Positions 29,358 to 55,475 are shown, counted from the stretch's first letter. The stretch is DNA of 64,000 nucleotides from Pseudomonadota bacterium (GCA_022709365.1 JAKLIY010000010.1:26341-90340), one strand, 5' to 3'. Numbers and translations: made by a program. Notes: a model not told the origin generated them from the sequence alone.

Positions 29358-29523
29358 GCAATTCCTTATGTTATTGAGAAAGCGATTCCTGTCCGGAGCG
29401 ACTGAAAATTTATGATGCCACACCCGCCAAAATCTGGCTATGTGCGATGCATCCCGACAAGGCCAGTGTCTTCCAGCGCCGTGTTATGATGTGCCCATCA
29501 TGCAACATTTTCCATGACCAACC

Positions 29524-30960: not shown

Positions 30961-32150
30961 ATCCAACCCTCAATATCGACGTCGCCATCATCGGCGGCGG
31001 CATCGCTGGTTTGTGGTTGCTGGCGCGATTGCGTGAGCGCGGCTATGGCGCACTGCTCATTGAGAGCGACCGACTGGGTGCTGGTCAGACCCTCTGCGCG
31101 CAGGGCATCATCCACGGCGGCGCCAAATACGGCCTGCGCGGCTACGCCGGCCCGACTGCCGAAGCGGTCGCCGGGATGCCCGCTTTATGGCGGTGCTGCC
31201 TGAACGGTGAAGATGAAATCAATCTGCACGGCGCTGCATTGCTGGCTGAACATCAATATCTCTGGGCCACTCACGCCCCAACCTCCCGGCTGGTCGCCTT
31301 TTTCGCCAGCAAGTTGATGCGCGGCCATGTGGAGAAGGTGGCGGACGGCGGTATGGACGCCAGCGATTATCCGCCGGTCCTGCGCCATCCCGATTTCCAT
31401 GGCGCGGTGTACCGGTTGGATGAACCCATTATCGAGGTCGCCTCGGTGCTGACTGTGCTGGCTGAGCGTTATCAGGACGCCATGGTCCGTAATCGTGGGC
31501 CAGCTATTTTGAAAGCGGACGGGAACCTGACCCTGCACCATCCTGAACGTCCACAATGGGTGATCCGGCCGGCAGTCACGGTGTTCACCGCAGGAGCCGG
31601 CAATGCCGGGCTGCCGTGGGCAACTTTGCAATTGCGCCCGCTGCACATGGTGATGGCGCGCGGCGTCAACCTTCCCGGACCCTTGTATGCACACTGTCTG
31701 GGCGCCAGCGAGGTCCCCCGCCTGACCGTAACCAGCCATTACGACGCTACTGGCCGGTTGATCTGGTATCTCGGCGGCGGACTGGCGGAAGAGGGAATTC
31801 GGCGTGATCGCCGCGAGCAGATCCGGGCCGCACGGCGGGAATTGCAGGCGTTATTGCCATGGGTAGACTGGAATCCCGTGGAATTTGCCACCTTCACCAT
31901 CCAGCGAGCCGAGGCCCATCAGCACGGCGGTGGACGGCCAGCGACGGCCAGCGTGTTCCGCGATGGCCGAGTGATCGCCGCCTGGCCGACCAAGCTGGCG
32001 CTGGCGCCGCTGTTAGCCGAACAGGTTGAGGGACTGTTGCAAACCTTGAAAGTGCCGCGCCGTCCGGTGGATTTGAGTCCGCTGGCGAATTGGCCGCGCC
32101 CGGAAATTGGCGTCTATCCCTGGGATCAGGAGGAAATGGAGTGGAGTTAA
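30957..32150 (+). CDS. FAD-dependent oxidoreductase (DAO family)
   Basis: 397 residues. The dinucleotide-binding motif [18 protein letters not shown] is at the N-terminus, followed by [20 protein letters not shown], which resembles glycerol-3-phosphate dehydrogenase/D-amino acid oxidase-like proteins. Near the middle, [11 protein letters not shown] and the C-terminal [20 protein letters not shown] fit the FAD-closing region. The substrate is unknown. The 4-bp overlap with hldE and the overlap with the aldo/keto reductase downstream suggest one operon. Confidence 0.82.
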
Positions 32151-32965
32151 GGTCCTTGGGATCAACTGGCGTACAGGTCAGTCCCCTGGGGTTGGGGACG
32201 GTCAAGTTCGGTCGTAACCAGGGGGTTAAATATCCCCGACCGTTCGCCCTGCCTTCGGATCAGGACGCACTGACGCTGCTGGATTTAGCTTGGGACCTGG
32301 GGATTAACCTGCTGGACACCGCCCCTGCTTATGGCGAAAGCGAGGAACGGCTGGGCCGGTTGCTGCGGCAATGCCGGCAGGACTGGGTGATCGTTACCAA
32401 GGTAGGTGAAGAATTCCACGATGGCGTCTCTGTGTTCGATTTCTCCGCCGCCGCCACCCGCACCAGTGTTGAGCGCAGTCTGCGGCGGCTGGGGGTGGAA
32501 ACGCTGGATGTGGTGCTGATTCATTCCAGCGGTGATGATCTGCGCATTCTGGAGCAGGAGGAGGTTTTACCTGCGCTGCGGCGTTTACAACAGGCCGGTC
32601 TGATTCGCGTCGTGGGGATGTCCAGCAAGACGGTCGGCGGCGGCTTGCGGGCTGTGGAATGCTGCGATGTGGTCATGATGACCTATAACCTGTCACAGCG
32701 GGAAGAACTGCCGGTCATCCGCACCGCGCACGCCGCCGGCAAGGGCGTGTTGATCAAGAAGGGTCTGCTCAGTGGACATCTGGATTCGCTGACGAACGCT
32801 GATCCAGTGCGGGCGTCAATGGAGTTAATTTATGCCGAACCGGGAGTGAGCAGCGTCGTGGTCGGGACGTTGAACCCGGGACATCTTCGGGCGAACGTGG
32901 CGGCGGTGGAAGAGGTGTTGAGCCAGCCAGCCGTATCCGATCCGGTTGGAACCACTGCTGGCTGA
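32141..32965 (+). CDS. Aldo/keto reductase family protein
   Basis: 274 residues starting with GTG at 32141, ten bases before the end of the previous gene and behind AGGAGG. The AKR barrel shows the catalytic DTAPAYGESEERLG (Asp and Tyr), VTKVG (Lys) and VLIHSSGDD (His), then the cofactor end VVGTLNPGHLRANV. It likely reduces a small carbonyl compound with NADPH. It is probably co-expressed with the FAD oxidoreductase. Confidence 0.88.
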   Translation: MELRSLGSTGVQVSPLGLGTVKFGRNQGVKYPRPFALPSDQDALTLLDLAWDLGINLLDTAPAYGESEERLGRLLRQCRQDWVIVTKVGEEFHDGVSVFDFSAAATRTSVERSLRRLGVETLDVVLIHSSGDDLRILEQEEVLPALRRLQQAGLIRVVGMSSKTVGGGLRAVECCDVVMMTYNLSQREELPVIRTAHAAGKGVLIKKGLLSGHLDSLTNADPVRASMELIYAEPGVSSVVVGTLNPGHLRANVAAVEEVLSQPAVSDPVGTTAG

Positions 32966-33059
32966 TCCCGATTGCTGTCATCCAGCGCTGAGGTTAAGAG
33001 AATCATGCAAAACGCTTATCGTACTGTATAGCGGTTGGAAGGTCGCCATTTAGTTCATT

Positions 33060-33675
33060 AATTAAATTAGGTAAACCCCCGGCTTAGCCGGGGGACTCCC
33101 CAAGATTTGACCGTTCCGGCGGTCAGTTGGATTCTCTACGGTCCCTTCAACGACCGAGGTGAATCTACCATGGCAGAGTATCGGAGTCTGAGTCATACGA
33201 AATGGGATTGCAAATATCATATTGTTTTCATTCCCAAACGGCGGAAGAAAGTGATCTATGGTCAAATCAGGAGGAGGCTTGGAGAGATGTTTCACGAATT
33301 AGCCAGCCATAAAGACGTAGCAATTATCGAAGGGCATCTGCGACCGGATCATGTTCACCTGTGCTTGAGGATAGCACCGAAGTACGCGGTATCGAATGTG
33401 GTGGGGTATCTGAAAGGGAAAAGCGCCATGATGATCGCTCGATTTTTTGTAGGAAAGGAGAGGAATTTCACGGGCGAGAGCTTTTGGGCCAGAGGCTACT
33501 TTGTATCGACGGTGGGATTGGATGAAGCGACGGTTATTGAGTACATTCGGAACCAGGAGGCCGAAGAGGAGCGCCATGAACAGTTGAGGTTGCGTATGCC
33601 GCTTTGAGCGGCCCCAAGCATCCACAACCCCTTTGAGGGGTTCACCTAATAAGCCCCCGGCTTTGCCGGGGGTCA
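33060..33675 (+). mobile_element. IS200-like insertion sequence (tnpA only)
   Basis: The element is bounded by two nearly identical hairpins: CCCCCGGC/GCCGGGGG at 33076-33094 on the left and at 33654-33672 on the right. These subterminal stem-loops are what single-strand HUH transposases recognise. Between them lies one transposase gene; there is no tnpB. A further hairpin (AACCCCT/AGGGGTT, 33627-33643) precedes the right end. The exact cleavage ends cannot be fixed from one copy. Confidence 0.82.
33170..33607 (+). CDS. tnpA: IS200/IS605-family transposase TnpA (Y1 HUH)
   Basis: 145 residues. HIVFIPKRRKKVIYG at the N-terminus, the HUH metal motif in RPDHVHLCL, the SFWARGYFVSTVG segment and the nucleophile region IEYIRNQE are characteristic of Y1 transposases. 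Full length and intact. The ATG at 33170 gives the normal N-terminus MAEYRSLSHTKWDCKYH. Confidence 0.95.
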   Translation: MAEYRSLSHTKWDCKYHIVFIPKRRKKVIYGQIRRRLGEMFHELASHKDVAIIEGHLRPDHVHLCLRIAPKYAVSNVVGYLKGKSAMMIARFFVGKERNFTGESFWARGYFVSTVGLDEATVIEYIRNQEAEEERHEQLRLRMPL

Positions 33676-33682
33676 TTTAACT

Positions 33683-33856
33683 GTAGATTTTCCAAAATCT
33701 GGCGATGTGGAAATTATTATTCTTTCGCTCGATTCGACCGATGAAGCCACAGGCCGACTCTTAATGCGCGAATGGCTGGCCCGCGCTTGGGGTTGTGCGC
33801 CTGATTTCCCCGACCGTCCCGATCAACCACCACTCGGTGACATCACGCTATTATGA
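33683..33856 (+). pseudogene. Probable antitoxin gene remnant (3' end)
   Basis: In frame from the right end of the IS200 element the sequence encodes about 57 residues (VDFPKSGDVEIIILSLDST, then REWLARAWGCAPDFPDRP). It stops at a TGA that overlaps the start of a PIN-domain gene (ATGA). That coupling is typical of VapB-VapC pairs. The N-terminal DNA-binding part is absent, perhaps cut off by the insertion. The antitoxin identity is inferred mainly from position. Confidence 0.35.
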
Positions 33857-34086
33857 CCTCCCGCTATTTGCTGGACACCAATATGTGCATCGAAATTGCT
33901 CGTGGGCGTCATTCAGGCATTCAAACGCGCATGGCGACATTGTCCTACGGCGAAGTGGCGATCTGTTCCATCGTTTGGGCTGAATTGGAACTGGGAGCGT
34001 ATTTATCCCCCAAGGGTTATGGTGATTTCTGGAAATCGAGATCCCATTACAACGCTAATAGGAGTTACGAATTGACAACCGGTTGA
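33853..34086 (+). pseudogene. Truncated VapC-type PIN-domain toxin
   Basis: The first ~55 residues, SRYLLDTNMCIEIARGRH followed by GEVAICSIVWAELELGAY, match VapC ribonucleases, including the first catalytic Asp in LLDTN and the Glu in AELELG. Beyond LSPKGYG the frame no longer looks like a PIN domain and stops after 77 residues, about half the family length. The remaining catalytic Asp residues are missing, so the toxin is dead. Confidence 0.8.
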
Positions 34087-34136
34087 AATTGTGAGTTAAG
34101 ATTTTCCATACTAATAAGCTGTCGCAAAAGTTTTGA

Positions 34137-34260
34137 TAGGTTCTCGTTCCCACGCTCCAGCGTGGGAACGCCGACGAGCCGCTCCAGCGGCCCGAATGAT
34201 CTCAATAAAATCGCGACGCTGGAGCGTCTGGACGTACTCCCACGCTGGAGCACGGGAGCT
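34137..34260. repeat. Cluster of short palindromes built on GCTCCAGC
   Basis: Four imperfectly related inverted repeats occur in 125 bp: 34147-34168 (10-bp arms, 2-base centre, perfect), 34178-34191 (6-bp arms), 34215-34228 (6-bp arms, complementary orientation) and 34237-34258 (imperfect). All share a GCTCCAGC or GCTGGAGC core. This is the look of an extragenic palindromic repeat family. It lies between the dead vapBC pair and the start of the kinase/coiled-coil locus. Confidence 0.85.
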
Positions 34261-34309
34261 AGGCGCTACCTGTCAGAATTTATGCATCAATCCACTAGAG
34301 ATATTCTCA

Positions 34310-36235
34310 ATGTCTGCCCTCATCGTCCCACTCACCACTCGGATCCATGCACTCTTCACTCAAGCCGCCGCCGCCAGTGATGATGTGGAACAGGGCCTCA
34401 TTGATCCTCCGCTTAAAAATCAGTTGCGACGGTTGCGAGACGATTTTCACGGAAAAAATCTACATCTGTTGATCGTCCCGGCTAGCTCGGAGGTAATGCC
34501 AATGCTGTTAGCAGCGTTGCCACAAGGTGTTCTGCCATCGCTACTGCCGGATCCTCTCCCCGCGTTGTGCAGTTTGGTTCCTGACGGTTATCCCTGCGTA
34601 TCCTGGAATGATGGATCGCCCCAGCGGTCATTAACATCAACGGCCCGGCAACTCCGTTGGATTCATCACTATCCATCGTCTGTATTTCCACAGCCGGTTT
34701 GCCTTCATGTGCTGGGCGATCCCGAGGTGATACTGAAATCGCCAGTGCTGCTTGGTGAGTTGATCGGCTGCGCTGATCTGACGCTGCTGGTCAATCTGGC
34801 GGAAACGCCGGTTTCCACCAGCGCCGGCTGTTTCAGTGATATTCCGGGGTATGCTGAGACAGTTATTAACTGGGTTTTGATATCGCGATCTGCAGAATCT
34901 GTAGACGGATCGGAATCAACTGAGAACTTTGATCAATGGTTTCTCAACCAACTGAATATTTTACTTAAAAGTCCGCGTTATGATGGCTATTTGTTGATAG
35001 CCGCTGCGCGTAAACTGGCGTGCTTGAAAAGCGTGTTTCAATATGTCATTCAACGTCGTCAGGAACAGATTAAAATATGGAATTTTGAAGCTACCCACCG
35101 CAAAAAGAGACAAGATGATGGCTCTAAAAACCAAATGGATTTGATCCGTGATTTGGAAAAAATAGCCGATGAAGAATTGAAAAAAATTCGCTCTGACTTT
35201 GTCCAGAGTTACCGATATTACAAAACGGCATTGGATCAAGCAAACTTTTCACAAAGTGGCATTCGCACCACAAGCTATTGCTATCCTTTCAATATTGAAG
35301 GTGTATTGCTGGACCAAGTGGATAGCGATGATCTGGAAAAAATGAAAACCCGTCGTCATGAACCAGTCTTCAAAAATCAACTTTGGCGCTATCTGTCCAC
35401 CAAGTTTGGTAACACTGAATACAGACTTTTCATTAGCAATGGAAAATTGGCATTGCTCGCTAAAACAGTGCAAAATAAGCTAAAAAAACATGTGGATAAG
35501 GAGTGCAATGGATTTAACCAAGCGATTAATCAATTACAGCAAACCCTGCAATGCTATCTCCACGACAATAATCTTGATGCAGACTTGCAATTACCAATGA
35601 TAAAGTCCGAAGTTTTGACGACAACATTGGGGCAACCGATCTGCATTGATGGTGATGAAACCTTCGTGCAATACGGTTATGGACAACGGTTTCGGGAAGG
35701 GCGAATGTTAATGGGAGGTGGATTTTACATGGTCATTATGATGCTAACTCGGGTTTTTCGCGAAGACATCAATGCGTTGTTAAATTTGAAGGGAACGTCT
35801 AATATTACAAGTTATTTAATGCTATTTATTATGCTATTTTCCCTGATCATTTATTTTCCATACGCTGGCAAAAAATATGCAGCAGATGCAGAAAAATCCA
35901 TCGAATCAGCGCTGAATAAACTGCGAAAAAAACTACGGGATACTATCCAAAAAACCTGTAAAGATGTGGTAGAGGAAAATAAGAAGAAGGAGTTTTCTGC
36001 GCATCTTGATCAGGTTAAAAATCGAATCAAGATTGAAAGTGACCGACTTCGCGCCAGCATGACTGCTAAAACGCCCATTGAAGGCCACTCCGAGAAGTAC
36101 ATCGCCCTGAAAACAAAGACATTGCAACAGTTGACTGCACCGACCGCCGCCCTTAGCAAGTTTAACAGCGAAACCGATCATGCCGCGCTAAAAACCGACC
36201 TGCAAAAGCTTAAACTGGAACTTGAAAAAGCATAG
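34310..36235 (+). CDS. Membrane protein of unknown function resembling a degenerate dynamin-like GTPase
   Basis: 641 residues from the ATG at 34310; an in-frame stretch from 34133 is translated palindromic repeat and should be excluded. Residues ~50-90 (LHLLIVPASSEVMPMLLAAL, then GVLPSLLPDPLPAL) align by pattern with the dynamin G1 region, where a GKS P-loop is followed by a VLP..PTT switch, but Gly, Lys and Ser are missing. CLHVLGDPEVI and CADLTLLVNL resemble later GTPase strands. The C-terminal half has long charged helices and two adjacent transmembrane helices (about 465-482 and 490-512), then coiled coil. The middle is AT-rich. The Hsp70-like gene follows after 12 bp. The dynamin assignment is inference. 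Confidence 0.6.
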   Translation: MSALIVPLTTRIHALFTQAAAASDDVEQGLIDPPLKNQLRRLRDDFHGKNLHLLIVPASSEVMPMLLAALPQGVLPSLLPDPLPALCSLVPDGYPCVSWNDGSPQRSLTSTARQLRWIHHYPSSVFPQPVCLHVLGDPEVILKSPVLLGELIGCADLTLLVNLAETPVSTSAGCFSDIPGYAETVINWVLISRSAESVDGSESTENFDQWFLNQLNILLKSPRYDGYLLIAAARKLACLKSVFQYVIQRRQEQIKIWNFEATHRKKRQDDGSKNQMDLIRDLEKIADEELKKIRSDFVQSYRYYKTALDQANFSQSGIRTTSYCYPFNIEGVLLDQVDSDDLEKMKTRRHEPVFKNQLWRYLSTKFGNTEYRLFISNGKLALLAKTVQNKLKKHVDKECNGFNQAINQLQQTLQCYLHDNNLDADLQLPMIKSEVLTTTLGQPICIDGDETFVQYGYGQRFREGRMLMGGGFYMVIMMLTRVFREDINALLNLKGTSNITSYLMLFIMLFSLIIYFPYAGKKYAADAEKSIESALNKLRKKLRDTIQKTCKDVVEENKKKEFSAHLDQVKNRIKIESDRLRASMTAKTPIEGHSEKYIALKTKTLQQLTAPTAALSKFNSETDHAALKTDLQKLKLELEKA

Positions 36236-36247
36236 GAGCAGCAACCC

Positions 36248-37339
36248 GTGTATGCGTTGGGGATTCATTTGGGCAGCCTGACCACCCAAGCTGTTTATAT
36301 CGACTCGCTGGGCGACAGCGGACGGCTAACCGATCTCGAAGAAGGCCGTAGTTATCCGATTCCCAGTTGGGTAGCGCTGGATGGGTTCGGGTCGTTGACC
36401 GGTTACGCCGCCCTGCGGTTGCGTTCCAGTGAATCGCCGCCAGCTCTGATTCGCTTCGCTCGCGAGGCGTTGTTGGTGGATAAAGCGACTCTAGCCAACG
36501 CTGATCAACCGCGCACTGCTGATGAAATCGGTGTCCTGCTGCTGAATAAAGTTCTGCGCGATTTGCCTAGCCTGCGGCGCGATGATCTTTTTGTGGCGCT
36601 GACCGTGCCAGACGGCATGAGCGACCAGCGTCGGCAGCAAATGCATGAGATTTGGCGCGGGGTGGGCCTCCAGAACTTGGCATTTCTTGAGGACAGCGTT
36701 GCGGTACTCAACGCAGCTAACAACCGTGCGGCACTGAGCGGCAACACCTTTTTATCGCTGGTCTTTGATGAAGATGCCCTAAAGATTAGCTTGCTGCGCC
36801 GCCAAGCATCGGAGTTCACGGTATCGGCGCATACTGTGATCGAAGCCGTCAGCTTGCTGGCAATTCGCAACGCGCTGGCCGAAGCGGTGACGCGGGATGC
36901 CAAGCTGCTGACCAGCGGGCATGACGTGGTAGAGCCGGCGGAATTGGAGGATTGCTGGTATCGCCACGGCGATGCGTTCATCGGCCATTGCGCCGATGCG
37001 CCGCAAACCGCGTTCAGCCGGGAGTTAATCCTTCGCTATGGCAACCGCTATCTGACCCTGATATTCACGCCTGCCGCGCTCGATGAGAGCCTGGATGCCC
37101 AGCGCCGGATGTTGGAAAGCCGCCTGCTGGAGTTTGCCCAGCGCCATGCCGGTCCGAGTATCGATCAAGCGATCTGTACGGGCAAGCTGGGGCGGTTGCT
37201 GAATGCGTCGGGCCTGCTGCAAAAAACGCTGGGGTTGCGACCCGATGCGATTACGATCCAGCCCGATACCGCGCTGGCGCATGGCGCGGCTTTGTACGCG
37301 GCCCGGATCGATAATAATACTCGTGCTGCCGGTAAATGA
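36248..37339 (+). CDS. Hsp70/actin-fold protein, ATPase domain only, with eroded nucleotide motifs
   Basis: 363 residues starting at GTG, with AGGAG upstream. The start YALGIHLGSLTTQAVYID aligns with the Hsp70 phosphate-1 loop GIDLGTTNS, but the Asp is His. The phosphate-2 loop DLGGGT appears as VFDEDALKISLL, lacking the glycines. The C-terminal CTGKLGRLLNASGL corresponds to the adenosine-binding segment. There is no substrate-binding domain or lid. FVALTVPDGMSDQRRQQMHEI and ALAHGAALYAA are otherwise Hsp70-like. It is probably a pseudo-ATPase acting with the membrane protein encoded just upstream. Confidence 0.75.
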   Translation: MYALGIHLGSLTTQAVYIDSLGDSGRLTDLEEGRSYPIPSWVALDGFGSLTGYAALRLRSSESPPALIRFAREALLVDKATLANADQPRTADEIGVLLLNKVLRDLPSLRRDDLFVALTVPDGMSDQRRQQMHEIWRGVGLQNLAFLEDSVAVLNAANNRAALSGNTFLSLVFDEDALKISLLRRQASEFTVSAHTVIEAVSLLAIRNALAEAVTRDAKLLTSGHDVVEPAELEDCWYRHGDAFIGHCADAPQTAFSRELILRYGNRYLTLIFTPAALDESLDAQRRMLESRLLEFAQRHAGPSIDQAICTGKLGRLLNASGLLQKTLGLRPDAITIQPDTALAHGAALYAARIDNNTRAAGK

Positions 37340-37468
37340 TCACGCTGGAAAATTGCACAAAGTTGGGGAAGCAGCCTTGGCAACGGGATCAGCCAGATCA
37401 GCAGTTGATGGCACACACTGGCACCCCAAGGGTTGCTTTATGAGGATTAAAATGATGGATAAGTCTGG

Positions 37469-39394
37469 TTAGCGTAACTGGCCGTTCTCGGCCAACCTGG
37501 CGAGGGCAGCTTGCGCTTGCGTGTTTCCCTGTTTTGCCGCTTTGCGATACAAAGTCACAGCTTGAGCCATATTTTTGGGTACTCCGCGACCATTCTCGTA
37601 CATCCAACCGAGATTTAATTGTGCCATTTCATCACCCTGTTCGACGCCTTTTTGAAACCATTCGATAGCTTTTTTATCATCTTGAGCCACACCAAAACCT
37701 ATCTTGTAATTCATGCCAAGGTTATTAAATGCCGAAGGATAGCCTTGTTCGGCAGCCTTTCGGCACCAGAATACAGATTGTTCCGGATTGTTGGTCACTC
37801 CTTCGCCTTTGCGGTAACTCACGCTGAGATTATACTGCGCCTCAGCAAACCCTTGTTCGGCTGCTTTGCGATACCAGAGTACGGCTTGGGCATAGTCTTG
37901 GGTTACCCCAAGACCTTTGTCATACATCCAGCCAAGTTGACTCTGTGCCGGAGCGTATCCCTGCTCGGCTGCTTTGCGAAACCACTTAACAGCTTGTGCA
38001 TTATCTTTCCCAACTCCCTCACCCTTGTGGTACATGTCACCGAGATTTACCATTGCTAACAAGATACCTGCCTGTGCCCCCTGCTGGCACTGTACAAGTG
38101 CGTCCTGTGAACGATTCGCTTTCCTTAGAGCGCGGCAGAAATAGGCTTTAAGTTTAGGGTCTTGAGGATTATCTCGCACGGCCTGTTCACAGGCAGGCAC
38201 CGCACGACCGGGATCAATGTCATCAAACTGGATCCAGCGCGAGTCACTCCAACCGGCCGCAAGCTGGCGGCACTGATCAGCCTCAGCTTGTTGTGCCTGC
38301 CGTTCAATCGCCGCTTTTTCTTCCTGCAGACGCTTCGCATCGACCTCAGCTTTCTCCCGTGCTTGCCGCTCAATCTCCAATTGTTGCTGGTGCTGTGCGG
38401 TGCTTTCATTGGCCTGCCATTGGAAGTAGCCGCCTCCCGCCACTGCAACTCCCAACACCATCGCCGCCGGCAGCAACCAACCCCGGATTGACTTACCCTC
38501 CCCCCCCAGCGCCGCTTGCCACGCTTCAATACTTTGATGCCGGTCACGCGGCTTGAGCGCCAGCGCTTTGTCCACACTCGCCAGCCACTGCCGCGAATAC
38601 CCCGCCGGTCGGATTTCACTGAGTGGCTTGAGCCGGTCGTCCAGTACCCGATCCGGCGCCGCCCATGGTTTGTTGCCGGTGATCCATTCGTAGATCGTAG
38701 CGCCCAGCCCGTAAAGATCCGTCCATGGCCCTTCCTTGATCTCGCCGCCGCTCCCCCCGTATTGCTCGATCGCCGCGTAGCCAGAAGTGTAGGCGTTGTT
38801 TGAGGAACTACGGCTTCCTTCCACCACCACCCGCCGCGCCGCTCCAAAGTCCAGCAGCACCGGCCGCTCGCCATCCACTAAATAGATGTTGTCGGGTTTT
38901 AAATCCCGGTGCAGCAGCCCTGCCTCATGCACTGTCCGCAACCCGTCCAGCAGTCGCTCCAAAACCCGTTGCACGCGCGCCGGTTCCGGGCGTCCTTCTC
39001 CCAGTTCCGCCGCCAGCGTTTTGCCTTCGTAGTACGGCATCACCAGATACGCGGTGCCATTGGCTTCCAGCACCCGGTACACCCGCACAATGTGCGGATG
39101 ATCCAGCCGCGCCAAGGTCCGCGCTTCGCCAAGAAAACGGTTTAATCCCTGCTGGTACGCCAGCCGGTACTCCGCCGATCCGGATCTCGACCGCGCCGTT
39201 ACCTGTACTCCATCCCGGCCCCGTTCCGCCACCAGCCCCGGCAGAAATTCCTTCATCGCCCGCCGTTTCCCCAGCGTGTGATCTATCACCAAGTACACCA
39301 CCCCAAAGCCGCCTCTCCCCAACACCCGCTCAATCTCAAATTCCTCCAGTCGGGTTCCCGTCGGCAGTTCGTCATTATTGTTTTGCTCAGTCAT
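37469..39394 (-). CDS. Membrane Ser/Thr protein kinase with C-terminal Sel1 repeats
   Basis: 641 residues. Kinase domain ~18-295: GRGGFGVVY, Lys48 in AMKEFLP, HRDLKPDN (162-169), DFGAA (182-186) and a GPWTDLYGLGATIYE segment. A transmembrane helix (about 306-326) follows, then a Gln/Glu-rich coiled coil (330-375), then about six Sel1 repeats of the AVKWFRKAAEQGYAPAQSQL type up to the C-terminus. The kinase is therefore cytoplasmic and the Sel1 solenoid periplasmic. It is divergent from the coiled-coil genes; its 5' leader (TCAAGG.TTT..AGG.CATG) is shared with the third kinase gene, implying duplication. Confidence 0.92.
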   Translation of the reverse strand: MTEQNNNDELPTGTRLEEFEIERVLGRGGFGVVYLVIDHTLGKRRAMKEFLPGLVAERGRDGVQVTARSRSGSAEYRLAYQQGLNRFLGEARTLARLDHPHIVRVYRVLEANGTAYLVMPYYEGKTLAAELGEGRPEPARVQRVLERLLDGLRTVHEAGLLHRDLKPDNIYLVDGERPVLLDFGAARRVVVEGSRSSSNNAYTSGYAAIEQYGGSGGEIKEGPWTDLYGLGATIYEWITGNKPWAAPDRVLDDRLKPLSEIRPAGYSRQWLASVDKALALKPRDRHQSIEAWQAALGGEGKSIRGWLLPAAMVLGVAVAGGGYFQWQANESTAQHQQQLEIERQAREKAEVDAKRLQEEKAAIERQAQQAEADQCRQLAAGWSDSRWIQFDDIDPGRAVPACEQAVRDNPQDPKLKAYFCRALRKANRSQDALVQCQQGAQAGILLAMVNLGDMYHKGEGVGKDNAQAVKWFRKAAEQGYAPAQSQLGWMYDKGLGVTQDYAQAVLWYRKAAEQGFAEAQYNLSVSYRKGEGVTNNPEQSVFWCRKAAEQGYPSAFNNLGMNYKIGFGVAQDDKKAIEWFQKGVEQGDEMAQLNLGWMYENGRGVPKNMAQAVTLYRKAAKQGNTQAQAALARLAENGQLR

Positions 39395-39554
39395 GCCCTG
39401 AAAATCCTTGATGGTGGGTCAAAACGGCTTGAGTTTGTCGCAACTAATACTAACATTGCCAAAATCCTTCAAGAATAGGGACGCACTCGGCGCTTCATTC
39501 CGCTCTGGCATCAACCCCTGAATTCCCAACCACAAACCCACAAGGATGCTGTTC

Positions 39555-40400
39555 ATGGACGTCAACGATTTAGGCCGCAACGTCGCCGAAGTCGTCAAGA
39601 TCATCAACACCACCCTGGAAGGGCGCTATCTGCCGGCGATTGAGCATCAGCGTCAGCAACTGGAAACCGGTCGCGCTCAACTGGAACAACTGCTCGAAAC
39701 CCTGGAAACCGCTCTCGACGAAGCGGATCAACAGGTGCAGCAACAATTAACGGAATGGGAGCAGGGTCTGGAAACCGCCAACCAGCAGGTCACTGCCGTC
39801 GCCGACGAGGTACGCGACAAGATCCAACAGGCAGAAAACTTCGTTAGTCAGTTCAAGGATTTTCTGCACCAGCTCTCCGAGCAGTTCAACCAGCATCACC
39901 AGCAGATTGCCACCGAGTTCAGCCAGTCCGCCAGCCACACCCAAGCCGCCCATGACCAGACGCTGACCCGTTTGCAGCAATGGGTTGCCGACACCGATTC
40001 GGGTCTGGAAAAATTGGGGCAGCAACACGCGACCCTCGAATCCGAATTCACTGCGCTCCAGCAGCAGGGCATCCAGCACTTCAGCGCCATCAGCCAAGCC
40101 TATCAGGAACTGAGTACTCAGACTGACCAACATCTGACCGGCGTGGAGCAACATCTCGATACCGCGCTGGAACAGATGCTCAACCAGTTTGAACAACTGT
40201 GGCAACACGACACGGACAGTACCTTGACCACCGACGCCAGCCATCTGAGCGAAATTCTGGAGCAGTTTAGCGCCGCTGGCGATCAGTTCAGCAATGTGTT
40301 CGATAGCGACACTCGCCAGATTCTGGAGAAAATCCAACAGGTCGCGGAAATCATCGAAAAGATCAAACCGATCCTCGACCTTGTCGACCAGTTGGCCTAA
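39555..40400 (+). CDS. Gln-rich coiled-coil protein 1
   Basis: 281 residues from the ATG at 39555, chosen because AAGGA lies eight bases upstream; an ATG three codons earlier is possible. Nearly the whole protein is predicted heptad-rich helix, full of Gln, Glu, Thr and His. There is no membrane segment, signal peptide or cysteine motif. The last ~30 residues (ILEKIQQVAEIIEKIKPILDLVDQL) form a more hydrophobic amphipathic helix, perhaps for membrane or partner binding. It is the first of four similar consecutive genes. No family recognised; it superficially resembles chemoreceptor signalling helices without their hairpin tip. Confidence 0.8.
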   Translation: MDVNDLGRNVAEVVKIINTTLEGRYLPAIEHQRQQLETGRAQLEQLLETLETALDEADQQVQQQLTEWEQGLETANQQVTAVADEVRDKIQQAENFVSQFKDFLHQLSEQFNQHHQQIATEFSQSASHTQAAHDQTLTRLQQWVADTDSGLEKLGQQHATLESEFTALQQQGIQHFSAISQAYQELSTQTDQHLTGVEQHLDTALEQMLNQFEQLWQHDTDSTLTTDASHLSEILEQFSAAGDQFSNVFDSDTRQILEKIQQVAEIIEKIKPILDLVDQLA

Positions 40401-40432
40401 CGGTTCCCGCCTTTCGATTTCAGGAGCGCAAC

Positions 40433-41431
40433 ATGGCTATCCCCGTCGCCAGTATTGGCCCGGCGCAATTGCAGGCTATTGGCCAACAGCTTGAAACCCA
40501 CATCGACGCAGCTAAGGACCTCCTGATCGATTTGGATCAGCGTTTCGCCCATCTCAGCCCCGAAGGCGACGCTGGCGGCTTGACGCGGGAGCATGATTTC
40601 ACCCAAGTCAGCGAAACCACCAGCCACGTCCATGAGGGCTTGCAAAAGCTGACACAAAGCGTGAGCGAAACCGCTGCCCAGAGCCAGCAGACCCTAACTC
40701 AACTGAGCACGGGCTACACCCAGTTCAATCAGCAGGTCGATTTAGGGGAACAGGAACTGCAAGACTGTCATCAGACGGTGCAAACCCACGGCGAGGAAAC
40801 CACCGCGCTGCTCGAACAATTTTTGCAATCTCTCCAGCGCCTGTTCGAGCAGACCGGCCAAACCTATCAGACCACCGAGCAGGAAATCGCTCAACTGCAC
40901 CAGACCGGCCTGCAAACATTCAATACGGTCGAATCCACTCTGAACAACTTTCAGCAAAACGCCGTACAGCATAGCCAAACCGAACTGGAGAACGCCGCTC
41001 AGCACCTACAGGAACAGTTGCGCAACCTGGGCAACCAGCAGATTCAGAATTTCGCCCACACCATTCAGAACCGATTTGACGAAACTCAGACCCACTTTAC
41101 CCAAATCAGCAGCGAGTTAAGCCACAAGGTGCAAACCATAGAACAACTACTCACTGAAGCCGGACAATTCGCTCAGGAGCAAGGCCAGCACCATATCAGT
41201 GAGCAAGTGGATAAACTGATTCAGGGCGCGGTCCAGCGCCTAGTAGAGGAAATCGTGTTAGCCATTGCCGAAACCGAAGCGGGCGCCTCAATTACCGGGG
41301 CGCTGATGCCGATCATGCCGGAGCTGATTGTGGTTTATAAGGCGACCGAATCGATCAAGGAAGCCATCCGGATATGGAAGGAACTCCAAGACACCCTTGG
41401 CGGCGCCAGCCATATCTTTAGTGGAGCCTAA
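40433..41431 (+). CDS. Gln-rich coiled-coil protein 2
   Basis: 332 residues, starting MAIPVASIGPAQLQAIGQQL, with CAGGAG upstream. A continuous helix-forming region with repeated Gln/Thr/Glu heptads spans about residues 60-265. The C-terminal ~65 residues differ: VEEIVLAIAETEAGASITGA, then a hydrophobic PELIVVYKATESIKEAIRIWKEL amphipathic helix. Located 32 bp after protein 1 and 43 bp before protein 3. No recognised family. Confidence 0.8.
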   Translation: MAIPVASIGPAQLQAIGQQLETHIDAAKDLLIDLDQRFAHLSPEGDAGGLTREHDFTQVSETTSHVHEGLQKLTQSVSETAAQSQQTLTQLSTGYTQFNQQVDLGEQELQDCHQTVQTHGEETTALLEQFLQSLQRLFEQTGQTYQTTEQEIAQLHQTGLQTFNTVESTLNNFQQNAVQHSQTELENAAQHLQEQLRNLGNQQIQNFAHTIQNRFDETQTHFTQISSELSHKVQTIEQLLTEAGQFAQEQGQHHISEQVDKLIQGAVQRLVEEIVLAIAETEAGASITGALMPIMPELIVVYKATESIKEAIRIWKELQDTLGGASHIFSGA

Positions 41432-41474
41432 AACTGGCGCCGCTCGGTTCAACGCTCAACCCGGAGATTTTTAT

Positions 41475-42401
41475 ATGGCCGATTTATTTGAGAGCATCGT
41501 CCAGGAATCCAACGAAGTAAACGCGCTGCTGGAGCGAGTGGTGCAGGAGATGCTACACGTCGGCGAGCAGATTCAGCAGGCCGGTGAACTGATCACCCAA
41601 GGTCGCGATCACTTGCAGCACGAGATCGAAACGGTCAGTACGGCAACGCAGCAGCTCTGGCAACACTTCGAGGAACAGGCTCAGCAAGTCCATACGCAAG
41701 GAAGTCGGGTTGAGCAACTGGTGCAAGGATTGTCCAGCCAAGTGGGGGATATGGACCAGCGCTTCCACGAAGAGGTTAACCACACGCGCACTGCCTTTGA
41801 GGAATACCGCCAAGGCATCGCGCACTGCGCGCAAACCCTGCAAACCCAGCAGGGTGACTTTGAAAGCCGCCTGAACGCTGGCCACGAAGTCTTGCAACAA
41901 CTTCAACAGTCGTTGCAAACCCAGTTTGAGCAGTCTGCGGCTACCTTGCACGAGTTTGAACAGCACACGCAAACGCTGGAAAACGAATGGCGACAGTTCA
42001 TCGAGCAGAGTCTGGAGACATTGCGCACCACGGAACAGGAAACCGCCCAGGAAGTGGAAACCGCCCTGATCAACGTCATCAACCAGGAAGCGGAACACCT
42101 GGCCAGCGCAGTTGAGCAGGTAGGGACTGGTCCGCTGACCGAGACCACGCAACAGCTCATTGACCTAGCGCGAGACGAGTTGGAACAGCAGATCAAGCAA
42201 CTCATCAGCGAGATCGGCCAGCACTTCAACGACATCCTAAGCCAGATCAGCAATGAACTCACCCAATCCACCTCCGGCAGTTCGGAAATCCGGGAATTAC
42301 TGAAACCTGTTTTCGAGCAACTGGAAAACATGACGGATCCGATTAAGGAAGTGGTCGAGAATGTTCGACGGGTTGCCGAAACGGTAGGTATTCACGTTTA
42401 G
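41475..42401 (+). CDS. Gln-rich coiled-coil protein 3
   Basis: 308 residues from the ATG at 41475 with GGAG eight bases upstream. The N-terminus MADLFESIVQESNEVNALLER leads directly into long Gln/Glu-rich coiled coil. The C-terminus ends in an amphipathic helix (LLKPVFEQLENMTDPIKEVV) like that of proteins 1 and 4. No membrane or catalytic motif. An open frame beginning in the previous gene is out of context and ignored. Followed after 17 bp by protein 4. Confidence 0.8.
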   Translation: MADLFESIVQESNEVNALLERVVQEMLHVGEQIQQAGELITQGRDHLQHEIETVSTATQQLWQHFEEQAQQVHTQGSRVEQLVQGLSSQVGDMDQRFHEEVNHTRTAFEEYRQGIAHCAQTLQTQQGDFESRLNAGHEVLQQLQQSLQTQFEQSAATLHEFEQHTQTLENEWRQFIEQSLETLRTTEQETAQEVETALINVINQEAEHLASAVEQVGTGPLTETTQQLIDLARDELEQQIKQLISEIGQHFNDILSQISNELTQSTSGSSEIRELLKPVFEQLENMTDPIKEVVENVRRVAETVGIHV

Positions 42402-42418
42402 ATCACGGAGAAAACCAC

Positions 42419-43342
42419 ATGGTCGATTTTGCCAGTCAGATCGAAAACGAAGCCCGGCAGATGCTGGACAATCTTGGCGGGATTCGTGGGCAGTTGCAGC
42501 AGGCCAGCGCACGGGTGATGGAAACGCAGCAGCAGGCTGAAGGTTTGATCACCGAGACTCAGACCGCCTACGAACAATTGACTGGCCGTTTGCAGGCCGT
42601 GCGCCAGCGGGCCGACCAGGTTCGGGAGAGCGTGACCACTCGGGTTTCGGATCTGGTGCAGCAAGTTGAACACCTGCTCCAGCAGGTTGAACAAGGGCAT
42701 CAGCAGGTGACAACGACTTATGGGCAGGTCAGCGCGGCGTTGGGGGCGCTGGTCAACGATACCGGTCAGCGGCACACTGAGTTACAGGATTATACCGAAC
42801 AGAGCCACCAACAAAGCCAGGAACTGCTGGGTACTGTGGAAAGCTTGCTGCATGGCTTGCAGCAGGAGGCGCAGCGGGCCGAAAGCGTGTACGGGCAAAA
42901 AGTCACGGAGCAGGCCCAGCACTGGGGGCAACGCTGGCAGGAATTGACTGGCGCGGGGCGGCAGGAGTTGAGCAGTGGGGTGGAACAGCATGTTCGCAAC
43001 GGCAACCAGCAGTTCAATGCCCATGTGCAGGAAGTCGCCGGGCGGTTCAATCAGAAGCTGACAACTTCCGCGCAGCGTGTTTCGGATCAGGGGCAGCAGG
43101 TTATGCAGACGTTTAGCCAGCACCAGCAGGATCGGTTGCGCAAGCTGGGAGAGGATGCCAATCGGCTCAAAGAACATTTGTTCAGCGTAGCCGAGAACTT
43201 CCAGACATTGACCCACGGTGCGACCGAAGCCACCGGAACCATGGTTAAAGGAATGGATGCGGTCAATTTGGGCCTGAAAGTCACAGTAGGGACCTTGAAT
43301 AATGTTAAGGAGGTTTTAGACGAAATCGGAACCATGATTTAA
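42419..43342 (+). CDS. Gln-rich coiled-coil protein 4
   Basis: 307 residues with CGGAG upstream of the ATG. The bulk is Gln/Glu-rich heptad sequence (about 20-265). The C-terminal ~40 residues (TEATGTMVKGMDAVNLGLKV, then LNNVKEVLDEIGTMI) are hydrophobic-amphipathic. Last of the series. The kinase gene downstream on the same strand starts after a 238-bp gap, so it may have its own promoter. Confidence 0.8.
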   Translation: MVDFASQIENEARQMLDNLGGIRGQLQQASARVMETQQQAEGLITETQTAYEQLTGRLQAVRQRADQVRESVTTRVSDLVQQVEHLLQQVEQGHQQVTTTYGQVSAALGALVNDTGQRHTELQDYTEQSHQQSQELLGTVESLLHGLQQEAQRAESVYGQKVTEQAQHWGQRWQELTGAGRQELSSGVEQHVRNGNQQFNAHVQEVAGRFNQKLTTSAQRVSDQGQQVMQTFSQHQQDRLRKLGEDANRLKEHLFSVAENFQTLTHGATEATGTMVKGMDAVNLGLKVTVGTLNNVKEVLDEIGTMI

Positions 43343-43440
43343 ATGGGGGATAGGGTGAGAAGAGCAATCAAGTTTTTTAAATGATTACATCAGTAATTAT
43401 AGTTCGAAAATTCAACTAATTTAAGTGAGCAATGGCAGTT

Positions 43441-43469
43441 TTGACAGACATTAGCGCCATTTTTAGCGT
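43441..43469 (+). promoter_or_regulatory. Possible promoter for the second kinase gene
   Basis: The 43343-43580 gap has no gene. It contains a consensus -35 hexamer TTGACA at 43441-43446; 17 bases later TAGCGT is a weak -10 candidate. The gap is clearly AT-rich. I see no hairpin or repeat in it. Confidence 0.25.
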
Positions 43470-43580
43470 AATGATTTGGGCTGTAATATTGCAGTTTGCA
43501 ACAAACAGAGTTGCTTATCCCCTTCCTCCTTAATAGACCAGTGAATAAACCTGATTCAAATACAATGGAATAACAGGCCC

Positions 43581-45242
43581 ATGACCGAATTTGAAATTGG
43601 CTACCACTTGCCGGTGGGTTACCGGCTGGAAGAATTCGAGATTCAGCAAGTGGTTGGGGAAGGCAGTTTCGGGATAGTGTATTTGGCGCACGACCACATC
43701 CTGAACCAGCGGCGGGCCATCAAGGAATTCCTGCCACCCCAAATGGCAGCGCGTGCGCCAGATGGAATTCAAGTAAATGCACGCACTCGCAACAAGGAGA
43801 TGCAGACCGCCTATCGAGTGAGTCTGAGACGCTTTATCAAGGAAGCGCAAATGCTGGCAGCACTGGATCATCCCAACATCGTACGGGTGTATCGCTGTCT
43901 GGAAGCCAATGGCACAGTCTATCTGGTGATGCCTTATTATCCCGGGGAAACCCTGGAACAGCATATTGAACGGGCTGGAAGCACAGCGCCTGACCCTGCC
44001 TGGGTGCAGCGGTTACTGGAACGACTTCTGGATGGATTAGCGGCGGTCCATGCCTGCGACTTGCTGCATCGAGATATCAAACCCGCCAATATCTATCTGG
44101 TCAACGGCGAACGGCCGGTACTGCTGGACTTTGGCGCAGCGCGACAGACGATGGTTCAGGAATACTCACAGAGTTTCGGGTTGATCCTGACTCAGGACTA
44201 TGCCGCGATTGAACAGTATGGCATTGATCGTTCTCAGGATGGGCCATGGACCGATCTTTACGCCTTGGGCGCCACCTTTTATCAATTGATATTAGGTAAA
44301 AAACCACCACCTGCCGCTAAGCGCATCTTGGAAGACAATTACCTGCCACTCATTGCGGCAGCACCCAAGCATTACCCCCGCTCTTTGGTGGCCAGCATTG
44401 ATCGAGCGCTGGCGGTACGCCCACGCAATCGTTATCTCGATACGGTTGCCTGGCTAAGGGATTTGCAACCCACCGGAGTCTCGCCATTGTCATCGCCAAG
44501 AAAGCGCGGACATATGCCGGCAATCCTGATCGGGTTGGTCGTCGGGGTGGGAGGCGCAAGCGCAATGTATTCCAGGTTCAAGCCCGGTCCCACGCCCATA
44601 CCCACACCTACCCCGACCGTCCAGCCTGCGCGATCATCGAATGCCCAACCACCGCCGCCCTCCACGATACCTGAGTCCCCCCGCTACGATGAGATTAGTC
44701 TAAATGTTGATTCTCCGGCTAACTGGTATATTAAGCGTATGATCCAGTATGCGCGCGATAGGACCCAATTTCAGTCGGATCAAGAGGAGTTGAGCGCTCT
44801 TGAAAAACCCTCCAGAGGCGACAGAAGATCAGCTAGACCACTAAACGATCAGGCAATTGCTTTAATTAGGCAATCAAACTACGCGGAAGCGCTGCCACTG
44901 CTTGAGGAAGCTCATCAAACCGATCCACGCGATGAGGAGATTGCCGATAATCTTGGATTCGCTTACTTGAATAATAATGAATACGACAAGGCAAAACAGG
45001 CTTTGGTTAATGCTTTATATATTAATTCTGAACGTAGCACAGCATGGCAAAACTTAGGCGATGCCTTCGCTATTGACGGAGATGAAAAAAGCGCCATTAA
45101 TTGTTATATCAATTTCTATTTTTCTTCAAGAAATAGAGAAAGAGCTTTGTCTTCTTTAAAAGATAACGGGACCGATGACTCCAGCCCAACAAGCGCAGCC
45201 CACCAGAAAGCCTATGAGTTCTTGCGCCAGCAGGGTTTTTAG
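43581..45242 (+). CDS. Membrane Ser/Thr protein kinase with C-terminal TPR-like region
   Basis: 553 residues. Kinase domain with GEGSFGIVY, Lys48 in AIKEFLP, HRDIKPAN (163-170) and DFGAA, closely related to the two neighbouring kinases. A transmembrane helix (about 312-332) is followed by a Pro/Thr-rich linker (PGPTPIPTPTPTVQP). The C-terminal region contains two or three TPR-like helices: AIALIRQSNYAEALPLLEEA, then ADNLGFAYLNNNEYDKAKQAL. Sequence after ~44,690 becomes AT-rich, as if the C-terminal module were added separately. Co-oriented with the coiled-coil genes. Confidence 0.92.
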   Translation: MTEFEIGYHLPVGYRLEEFEIQQVVGEGSFGIVYLAHDHILNQRRAIKEFLPPQMAARAPDGIQVNARTRNKEMQTAYRVSLRRFIKEAQMLAALDHPNIVRVYRCLEANGTVYLVMPYYPGETLEQHIERAGSTAPDPAWVQRLLERLLDGLAAVHACDLLHRDIKPANIYLVNGERPVLLDFGAARQTMVQEYSQSFGLILTQDYAAIEQYGIDRSQDGPWTDLYALGATFYQLILGKKPPPAAKRILEDNYLPLIAAAPKHYPRSLVASIDRALAVRPRNRYLDTVAWLRDLQPTGVSPLSSPRKRGHMPAILIGLVVGVGGASAMYSRFKPGPTPIPTPTPTVQPARSSNAQPPPPSTIPESPRYDEISLNVDSPANWYIKRMIQYARDRTQFQSDQEELSALEKPSRGDRRSARPLNDQAIALIRQSNYAEALPLLEEAHQTDPRDEEIADNLGFAYLNNNEYDKAKQALVNALYINSERSTAWQNLGDAFAIDGDEKSAINCYINFYFSSRNRERALSSLKDNGTDDSSPTSAAHQKAYEFLRQQGF

Positions 45243-45304
45243 TAAGCCGATTACGTTGCTGTTAAAAGCATTTATATAGTACTTCAAAATCCGGGGGTTT
45301 GGCT

Positions 45305-46924
45305 CTACTCGAAAGGTGATTGCTCACACTCGGCTTTGATTAATGCTTGTAGAGCTTTCCAGAAACTGTAAACAGGTTGATCAGGGCGTGATAATAGGTA
45401 TTTTTTTATCTCTTCTTGATCTGGAATTTGACCTTTTTTGTATATTACAGATGGAAATTTTGTATCAATTCCTCCACCTGTAGAATGAAAGACATCTTCT
45501 TTTTTCATAATCACTCCCGGAAATTCAATACGAATACGAATAGAAAAAGTATCGTCGTTTAAAATGTAGTAGACTAATCTATATGAAACTCTCTTAATAT
45601 TAATAGAACATAAAGCATAACTCCATGTAATAGTACTATCACCGCTTTTCTCCTCGGTATAAAGTGTCTTACTATTGTTATCATACCTGATCAATTTTTC
45701 ACTCATATCTTCTGAATGCTTTTTGAGCCATTTGAGAATATCTTCCAACTGATTAGCCCGCTGCTGATCCTGATCTAGTTTGCGTTTATTATCCTCATCT
45801 AATTTACGTTGCCGATCAGCCGCAAGTCGTTCTTCAGCCTTGCGGTTAATTTCATCAATTTTTGATTGAAAATTACGGTTAATCTTATCAATTTCTTCTT
45901 GAGCCTTACGGTTAGCTTTATCAATCTCTTCAGCGGTGCGTTGTGATTGATCCCTATAGAGCCAATACCCCCCTCCCAGCAACACCAGCGCCAGCGCACC
46001 AACCGCCCCTGGTTGCCAGCGAAAACCGGAAGACTTCCGTTGCGCGGCCAGCGCCGCCAGCCACTCATCCGCGCTCTTGTAGCGATCCCGGGGACGAACC
46101 GCCAGTACCCGGTCAAGACTAGCCAGCAGGCGGCGTGGATAACCCTTGGGCGCGATCTCGCTCAGGGGTTTGAGTCGATCCTCCATCGCCCGCGAGGGAG
46201 CGTCCCACGGTCGTTCGCCGGTAATCAGTTCATAAAAGGTTGCGCCCAGCGCGTACAGGTCACTCCACAGTCCCTGCGGCATACCACTGTCCGCATATTG
46301 CTCGATGGGCGTGTAACCAGGGCTGATCACCGTGTTCAGGCTCTGGGTGCCTTGCGCCACCAGCCGCCGGGCCGCGCCAAAATCCAGCAGCACCGGCCGC
46401 TCTCGACCGGCCAGATACAGGTTGGCTGGTTTAATATCGCTATGCACGATCCCCCGCCCATGCACCACCCGCAGCCCTTCCAGCACCTGGGTCAACAAGC
46501 GCTGTACCCAATCCGGATCCGGTGGAGTTCCGCCCGCGTGCGCCAGGTACTGAGCCAGCGTCTCGCCCGGATAGTACGGCATCACCAGATAAGCTGTATC
46601 ATTGGCTTCCAACACCCGGTGAACCTTCACAATATTAGGATGATCGAGTGCCGCCAGCGTCTGTGCCTCTTCGATGAAACGCGCCAAGCTGTCCCGGTAA
46701 ACGCCGGACGCTCCTCCGGAACGGGCCGTAACTCGTATCTCCCCACTGGCCCGTCGCGCCGCTATGCCGGGTAGAAACTCCTTGAGTACCCGAGGTTGGT
46801 TGAGAGTACGGTCTTTAGCCAAGTACGCCACTCCAAAGCCCCCTTCTCCCAATACCCGCTCAATCTCAAATTCCTCTAGCTGGTAGCCGGCTGGCAAGTG
46901 ATTGCTGTTCGCTTGTTTGGTCAT
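45305..46924 (-). CDS. Membrane Ser/Thr protein kinase with coiled coil and unknown C-terminal domain
   Basis: 539 residues. Kinase domain shows GEGGFGVAY, Lys48 in VLKEFLP, and DFGAA. The catalytic loop reads HSDIKPAN: the usual Arg before the Asp is Ser, a non-RD form. A transmembrane helix (about 308-326) is followed by a highly charged coiled coil with repeated INRKAQEEIDK-like units (335-400). The C-terminal domain of ~130 residues (SGDSTITWSYALCSINIKRV and on) has strand-like sequence and no recognised family; its DNA is AT-rich. It lies 23 bp after the aminotransferase gene on the same strand, so it may be read from that operon. Confidence 0.9.
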   Translation of the reverse strand: MTKQANSNHLPAGYQLEEFEIERVLGEGGFGVAYLAKDRTLNQPRVLKEFLPGIAARRASGEIRVTARSGGASGVYRDSLARFIEEAQTLAALDHPNIVKVHRVLEANDTAYLVMPYYPGETLAQYLAHAGGTPPDPDWVQRLLTQVLEGLRVVHGRGIVHSDIKPANLYLAGRERPVLLDFGAARRLVAQGTQSLNTVISPGYTPIEQYADSGMPQGLWSDLYALGATFYELITGERPWDAPSRAMEDRLKPLSEIAPKGYPRRLLASLDRVLAVRPRDRYKSADEWLAALAAQRKSSGFRWQPGAVGALALVLLGGGYWLYRDQSQRTAEEIDKANRKAQEEIDKINRNFQSKIDEINRKAEERLAADRQRKLDEDNKRKLDQDQQRANQLEDILKWLKKHSEDMSEKLIRYDNNSKTLYTEEKSGDSTITWSYALCSINIKRVSYRLVYYILNDDTFSIRIRIEFPGVIMKKEDVFHSTGGGIDTKFPSVIYKKGQIPDQEEIKKYLLSRPDQPVYSFWKALQALIKAECEQSPFE

Positions 46925-46947
46925 GACCTATAAACCCTTGACAGTGG

Positions 46948-48141
46948 TTACAACCTGCCTAAGCGAAAGTCCTGGTCTTTTAATCGCAACACCCGCCGCA
47001 GCCGTTCTACGCCCTCCGCTAGTTGCGGGATAGCGCTGGTATAGGCGAAACGGACATGCCGGTTCGGCCGGTGATGGCCGAAGTCCAAGCCGGGAGTGAT
47101 AGCGACGCCCACCTCATCGAGCAGGCGTAACGCGAAGGCGTAGCTGTCGTCGGTGAAGCGGCCACAATCGGCATAGAGATAGAATGCCCCGTCCGGGGTC
47201 ACGGGAATGACAAAACCCAGTTCCCGCAAGGCCGGCAGCAGAAAATCCCGCCGCGCCTGAAATTCCTGCCGCCGTGCCTCAAACACGGTCTGCGCTGCCG
47301 GGGTAAACGCCGCCAGCGCCGCGTATTGCGCCGGGGTCGATGCCGCTAGAAATAGATTCTGCGCTAGCTTCTCCGCCACGCCAACGCTATCTTCCGGCGC
47401 GACCAGCCAGCCCAGTCGCCAGCCTGTCATGCCGTAATACTTGCTAAAACTGTTGACCACGAACGCTTGATCGGAAAACGCCAGCGCCGTTTGCAGCGCT
47501 GCGCCATAAACCAGCCCGTGGTAAATCTCATCCATAATGACTCGCCCGCCGCGTGCCTCGACGGTCGCGATGATCGCGGACAATTCTCCAGGCGGGATCA
47601 CTGTGCCGGTAGGATTGGCCGGCGAGGCCAACAACACCGCAACGGTCCGTTCATCCCAGTGCCGTTCTACGAGATCGGCGGTCAGTTGATAACCGGTTTC
47701 CGGCCCCACCGGAATTCCTACCGCTTCGCCTTCCACCAGCCGCACAAAATGCCGGTTGCAGGGATAGCTGGGATCGGCTAGCAATACCCGGTCGCCGGGA
47801 TTGATCAGCACCGCCGTTGCCAGTTGCAACGCGCCGGACGCGCCGGGGGTGACGAGAATGCGCCGGGGCGGAACTTCAACGCCATACCGCTCCCGGTAGT
47901 GGTCACTGATCGCCTGACGCAGTTCCGGCAGGCCCGCAGCGGGGGTGTAACGGGTGCGACCTTTCGCCAGCGCACGCTGACCGGCGGCGATGATCGGTTC
48001 GGCGGTCGGAAAATCCGGCTCGCCGATTTCCATGTGAATGATGGAACGACCTGTTGCTTCCAGTTCCCGCGCACGGGCCAGCAACGCCATGGCATAAAAC
48101 GGCGCAATATCCGCCATCCGGCGGGCCAGCACGCTGCTCAT
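46948..48141 (-). CDS. Pyridoxal phosphate-dependent aminotransferase, class I/II
   Basis: 397 residues. EIGEPDFPTAEPI, TPGASGALQLATAVL, DPSYPCNRHFV, ASPANPTGTVIP, DEIYHGLVYG and the cofactor-binding SFSKYYGMTGWRLGW (catalytic Lys) define a fold-type I aminotransferase, similar to aspartate/alanine-type enzymes. The amino acid substrate cannot be told. Its start overlaps the pilU stop by 4 bp. Confidence 0.92.
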   Translation of the reverse strand: MSSVLARRMADIAPFYAMALLARARELEATGRSIIHMEIGEPDFPTAEPIIAAGQRALAKGRTRYTPAAGLPELRQAISDHYRERYGVEVPPRRILVTPGASGALQLATAVLINPGDRVLLADPSYPCNRHFVRLVEGEAVGIPVGPETGYQLTADLVERHWDERTVAVLLASPANPTGTVIPPGELSAIIATVEARGGRVIMDEIYHGLVYGAALQTALAFSDQAFVVNSFSKYYGMTGWRLGWLVAPEDSVGVAEKLAQNLFLAASTPAQYAALAAFTPAAQTVFEARRQEFQARRDFLLPALRELGFVIPVTPDGAFYLYADCGRFTDDSYAFALRLLDEVGVAITPGLDFGHHRPNRHVRFAYTSAIPQLAEGVERLRRVLRLKDQDFRLGRL

Positions 48142-55346: not shown

Positions 55347-55475
55347 AAAAGGTTTTTTTACCCCTTTTCTTGAATAATTCGGGAGTAATTATCCGCAACT
55401 TCCACCCGACTGTATATCCATAGATGGTCCTTTTGGTGGCAAAATTCCAGCTAAGGCTGAACGAAGGACATGATC

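Follow-up and report, generated by a model that had tools for sequence, protein, structure and literature searches.

Nine adjacent genes lie in a stretch of 64,000 nucleotides (the window) on contig C2 of the genome G000, an assembly of 4.16 Mb in 141 contigs. They encode a membrane protein, an Hsp70-like protein, three Ser/Thr kinases and four coiled-coil proteins. A first-pass annotation of the window had proposed an undescribed locus whose parts might form one system. The question was whether these genes work together or were only gathered at the same site. By its gene content the source is presumably a Competibacteraceae-type gammaproteobacterium. Its closest genomes belong to a family of 39 species. 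G001-G005 are of the same genus, and G021 and G010 of two other genera. Relatives were sought in about 1,800 genome look-ups, which overlap, and in exact-word scans of a larger genome set.

The island and its borders

All nine ORFs that had been proposed were recovered. They are listed with their surroundings in window coordinates:

32132-32965: aldo/keto reductase gene, left flank
32966-46947, no strand: accessory island of about 14 kb, between the aldo/keto reductase and aminotransferase genes
33076-33672, + strand: IS200/IS605-type transposase gene (about 33170-33607) with bounding hairpins CCCCCGGC and GCCGGGGG; family assigned by reading the sequence, hairpins located by computation
33700-34050, + strand: decayed antitoxin tail and truncated PIN-type toxin frame, from direct sequence reading only
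34150-34260, no strand: REP-like palindromes, GCTCCAGCGTGGGAACG and its complement, at positions 34154 and 34238, located by computation
34310-36235, + strand: A, orphan membrane protein of 641 aa
36248-37339, + strand: B, protein of 363 aa with an Hsp70 nucleotide-binding domain only and eroded ATP motifs, starting 12 bp after A
37469-39394, - strand: K1, Ser/Thr kinase with a transmembrane segment (TM), coiled-coil stalk and Sel1 repeats
39546-40400, + strand: CC1, Gln-rich coiled-coil protein of 284 aa
40433-41431, + strand: CC2, Gln-rich coiled-coil protein of 332 aa
41475-42401, + strand: CC3, Gln-rich coiled-coil protein of 308 aa
42419-43342, + strand: CC4, Gln-rich coiled-coil protein of 307 aa
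43581-45242, + strand: K2, Ser/Thr kinase with a TM, Pro-rich linker and TPR domain
45305-46924, - strand: K3, Ser/Thr kinase with HSD in place of HRD, a TM, a coiled-coil stalk of 11-residue repeats and an orphan C-terminal domain
46948-48141: aminotransferase gene of 397 residues, right flank

The aldo/keto reductase and aminotransferase genes are convergent direct neighbours in G001-G005, G021 and G010, giving seven empty sites. The adjacency of both flanking genes in five congeneric species and two other genera indicates that the island was acquired by a clean insertion. An accessory insertion of about 14 kb in the G000 lineage is well supported, and the accessory region suspected at first is thus given precise borders by the empty sites. 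The alignment of the aminotransferase to its relatives ends near residue 379-393 of 397, indicating that the final codons of the gene fall at the border of the island. The transposase, hairpins and palindromes described earlier on the left side are present; the toxin-antitoxin pair described with them was recognised as a remnant, by reading of the sequence.

The GC3 of the island genes was lower and more variable (0.45-0.70) than that of the flanks (0.68-0.78). It differed strongly between parts, with 0.45 for A, 0.66 for B, 0.66-0.70 for the coiled-coil proteins (0.70 for CC1) and 0.51-0.60 for the kinases. This spread fits a composite origin, in which the insertion site gathered at least three independent pieces (the A-B pair, the kinase family and the coiled-coil array) that are not one system. 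The left side of the island, with its IS200-type element, palindromes and toxin-antitoxin remnant, points the same way, to repeated insertion and decay. Moreover, gene directions switch three times along the nine genes, with divergent and convergent neighbours, so the nine are not one operon. On the other hand, kinase and coiled-coil genes are interleaved, K1 before the array and K2 after it, and do not stand in blocks.

Two other regions of the window were recorded. At 27514-29423 on the - strand, between msbA-like and rfaE genes, a low-GC pair (GC 0.40 at 28-29 kb) consists of a D12-class adenine DNA methyltransferase-like ORF and an upstream ORF of 317 aa on the same strand, possibly a restriction-modification pair. 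The ORF at 55470-55973 on the + strand looks like the beginning of a membrane protein of the exosortase type and is followed by ORFs that look like those of extracellular proteins.

Membrane protein A and the Hsp70-like protein B

Protein A had been described as a two-helix membrane protein with a dynamin-like N-terminus that lacks the P-loop. One TM, at 499-517, is clear, and the second, at about 469-483, is only a weaker hydrophobic stretch and uncertain. The P-loop is indeed missing, since neither the G1 (GxxxxGKS) nor the G3 (DxPG) GTPase motif occurs in the translation. The dynamin label had come from likeness by eye, and profile comparison did not support it. Scores of A against three profiles of 10-14 GTPases each fell inside the distribution of its own shuffles, and pairwise BLASTP against one dynamin-like protein gave an E value of 0.28. 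No Pfam, PHROG or PDB match to A was found at threshold, and a match to the PADLOC LeoBC model (7e-5) was confined to the C-terminal helical and TM part. An AlphaFold model made without an alignment had a pLDDT of 38.5 and was too poor to use. Because the profile scores stayed within the shuffles and the model was unusable, A is not called dynamin-like here. It resembles bacterial dynamin-like proteins, including paired ones (doi 10.1038/s41467-018-05523-8) and those of the LeoABC type, in size, in its helical C-terminal half and in its TM, but differs in the GTPase motifs and the profile scores. Searches of 39 genomes of the family and 274 of the class gave no relative of A.

Two adjacent GTPase-like ORFs that match the LeoBC model lie elsewhere in G000 (G000:C78; L108:688-3607), and many of the other sampled gammaproteobacteria also have tandem GTPase matches. 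In four genomes, no Hsp70 gene was recognised from ORF starts beside dynamin-like genes.

With a profile built from four Hsp70s, protein B gave a score of 21.7 bits and the best of 2000 shuffles 7.9. The matching segments, 4-153 and 305-360, are collinear and correspond to both ends of the nucleotide-binding domain. The ATP motifs are eroded. At phosphate 1, GIHLGSLTT is aligned where Hsp70 has DLGTTxS; the glycines of phosphate 2 (DLGGGT) are lost at FDEDALKIS, where the placement of the alignment is uncertain; and the adenosine site reads GKLGR for GGxxR. The substrate-binding domain is absent, as B terminates where the nucleotide-binding domain ends. The missing domain and the eroded motifs indicate that B is likely an inactive ATPase, in agreement with its first description as an Hsp70-like pseudo-ATPase without a substrate domain.

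Pfam does not recognise B at E < 1, and an AlphaFold model without an alignment (pLDDT 39.4) was again too poor to use. No comparable relative was found in 40 related and 398 phylum genomes, where only ordinary Hsp70s matched, at E 6e-6 or worse. An exact-word scan of 84,980 genomes, which finds close relatives only, gave no match. GrpE-Hsp70 pairs of other Pseudomonadota were considered as ancestors of B and rejected, being ordinary full-length Hsp70s.

Kinases and coiled-coil proteins

K1-K3 are Hanks-type kinases, matching the Pfam kinase domain with E values of 7e-32 to 5e-33. Lys48, Asp164, Asn169 and DFG (K1 numbering) are invariant across the three, so that the catalytic residues are complete. 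A hydropathy plot showed a single TM peak in K1 and in K2, and a weaker peak, below threshold, in K3. The description of three related membrane Ser/Thr kinases therefore stands, with a weaker TM in K3. Positive residues ahead of the TM suggest that the kinase domain lies inside and a putative C-terminal sensor outside the cytoplasm.

The kinases share 51-58% identity with one another, and the best other kinases compared, from G000 and neighbouring genomes, reach about 44%. A search of 39 family genomes, at a cut-off passed by K1, K2 and K3 alike, gave no member of this subfamily in the 38 others. Judged by sequence, K1-K3 form one private subfamily. These results indicate that the three kinases diverged from each other chiefly in the sensor regions. 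The C-terminal regions are indeed unlike: Sel1 repeats in K1, TPR in K2, and in K3 the repeat stalk with an orphan end. A 33-bp tandem repeat of 3.1 copies (45830-45931) encodes the 11-residue repeat of this stalk, which is typical of a hendecad coiled coil. An exact-word scan of the 84,980 genomes with K3, again limited to close relatives, returned only distant kinases.

The kinases might also be relocated relatives of the type VI secretion (T6SS) kinase PpkA, and the island a degenerate secretion-regulation locus. Both have a Hanks-type domain, and three of the four plasmid kinases inspected, to which K1-K3 are 37-44% identical over the kinase domain, sit in T6SS clusters. But the fourth lies outside such a cluster, the identity to the plasmid kinases equals that to ordinary G000 kinases, the C-terminal regions are unrelated, and no T6SS, TagF, FHA or PP2C gene is present among the island ORFs. 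This origin is therefore very improbable.

The kinase domains match the PADLOC models PD-T4-6 and MADS6, which bears on a role in anti-phage (abortive) defence. The kinases would sense infection, and the coiled-coil proteins or A would target the membrane or phage assembly. A patchy accessory island with a toxin-antitoxin remnant would suit such a role, and Hsp70-like proteins, kinases and coiled coils are known together in predicted conflict systems. However, three control kinases of G000 scored equally on the same models (E 1e-44 to 1e-52), indicating that the matches are unspecific, and the PADLOC assignment was rejected. Moreover, none of the nine proteins has a Pfam match to a nuclease, toxin or other effector domain. 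Where viral, phage and plasmid sequences were searched with A, B or the coiled-coil proteins, no relatives came up. A defence role is thus considered unlikely.

CC1-CC4 contain 15-17% Gln with few Pro and Cys, and show heptad-type periodicity (z = 10-18 against shuffles). The gaps between these tandem genes are 17-43 bp. In pairwise alignment, all six pairs beat each of 300 heptad-preserving shuffles and every plain shuffle, with CC2-CC3 near the limit (153 versus 137). The scores indicate that the four are old tandem duplicates and not merely alike in composition. The earlier description as four tandem Gln-rich coiled-coil proteins is confirmed by composition, periodicity and this paralogy. 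Matches to models of tape-measure proteins, SMC, apolipoprotein and ZorA were attributed to the likeness that coiled coils share in general.

Among 144 genomes searched, all nearest ones included, the only relative of the coiled-coil genes was found in G013, from another genus of the family. It carries an intact CC4 (77% identical) beside a truncated CC3 (66%). Between the two CC4 genes dN was 0.13 and dS 0.95 (dN/dS about 0.14), indicating purifying selection and thus that CC4 is a real, used protein. A profile that included the G013 CC4 found no further members in 369 class genomes. Relatives of A, B, CC2 and K2 were looked for in G013 and none was found, as would be expected if the coiled-coil array were an independent piece of a composite island. 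But the 5′ end of the CC3 remnant is fused to a truncated cation-efflux-like ORF (L088:18664-20000; G013:C248:58664-60103), a junction produced by a genuine deletion or by a wrong join of contigs. Since the G013 locus is truncated at CC3, the absence of the rest there may reflect decay or a contig artefact.

One system or gathered cargo

The nine-gene set was not found together in any other genome searched. The first-pass annotation had asked whether the genes co-occur elsewhere or have homologues scattered without co-occurrence, and neither pattern was seen, the truncated CC3 and intact CC4 of G013 being the only related pair. Homologues were too rare to be called scattered. With limited searches and no second locus, the analysis neither demonstrates nor disproves that the genes form one system. 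The locus may well be undescribed, as proposed, since it matched none of the systems tested (dynamin pairs, CoCoNuT, DO-GTPase systems, T6SS kinases and PADLOC defence systems), and no description of this gene combination was found in the literature.

The nearest parallels are partial. In some neighbourhoods of GTPase-centric (DO-GTPase/GAP1) conflict systems, an Hsp70 occurs with a second Hsp70 domain that lacks the peptide-binding part; others contain active protein kinases with TM helices, and an assembly-type mechanism was proposed (Kaur et al. eLife 2020, doi 10.7554/eLife.52696). The island shares the Hsp70 domain without a substrate part and the TM kinases, but has no motif-intact GTPase, GAP1, vWA, PP2C, GrpE or tubulin, and has four coiled-coil paralogues. 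No TRAFAC GTPase or GAP1 Pfam domain was found in the nine proteins. CoCoNuT systems of types II and III combine coiled coils with Hsp70-like domains whose nucleotide motifs are degenerate, and a Ser/Thr kinase occurs in the associated TerY-P triads (eLife 2024, doi 10.7554/eLife.94800). These three elements are common to the island, whereas McrB GTPase, McrC and HEPN or other nucleases are absent from it (Pfam), and its kinases are membrane proteins without a zinc ribbon. The yegD-yegI-pphC-yegL cluster of E. coli also places an Hsp70-family protein beside a Ser/Thr kinase. Kinship with it was rejected: the YegD-B comparison was not significant, and YegI matched K3 over a short kinase stretch (E 0.001-0.003).

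The reading we tentatively prefer, at a probability of a little over one in three, takes the island as a rare accessory module gained by horizontal transfer, whose kinases sense the envelope and control an assembly of the coiled-coil proteins, with A and B as anchor and adaptor. All nine genes lie inside a single insertion. The coiled-coil array is preceded by the divergent K1 and followed immediately by K2, an arrangement that speaks for a functional tie of kinases and coiled-coil proteins. A and B make up a pair of their own. Against the module, no phosphatase, FHA or other phospho-reader is found among the nine proteins. Unlinked cargo is nearly as likely as the kinase and coiled-coil module.

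For this module we infer the topology, the kinase-substrate relation, the coiled-coil assembly, the A-B link and the cellular benefit. Each kinase would have a cytoplasmic catalytic domain, one TM and a different C-terminal domain, serving as a separate envelope sensor. Once triggered, K1-K3 would phosphorylate cytoplasmic CC1-CC4, which may build rod-like hetero-assemblies. A and B could be a non-catalytic pair, a membrane anchor and an adaptor, for this assembly, and the cell might gain a stress response or anti-phage defence. That the locus is an undescribed membrane-linked system, with three paralogous envelope-sensing kinases controlling a hetero-oligomeric four-member coiled-coil array, and the nucleotide-dead Hsp70 domain and the orphan membrane protein in structural roles, seems to us rather doubtful.

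Because the empty sites of the sister species are clean, the effect of adding or removing the whole island is easy to test. If the parts act together, they would make up a system, not among the catalogued defence and stress systems, in which phosphorylation regulates a coiled-coil assembly and which includes several sensor kinases and a pseudo-Hsp70. If they are unlinked, the locus still provides a new coiled-coil family under selection and a private kinase family.
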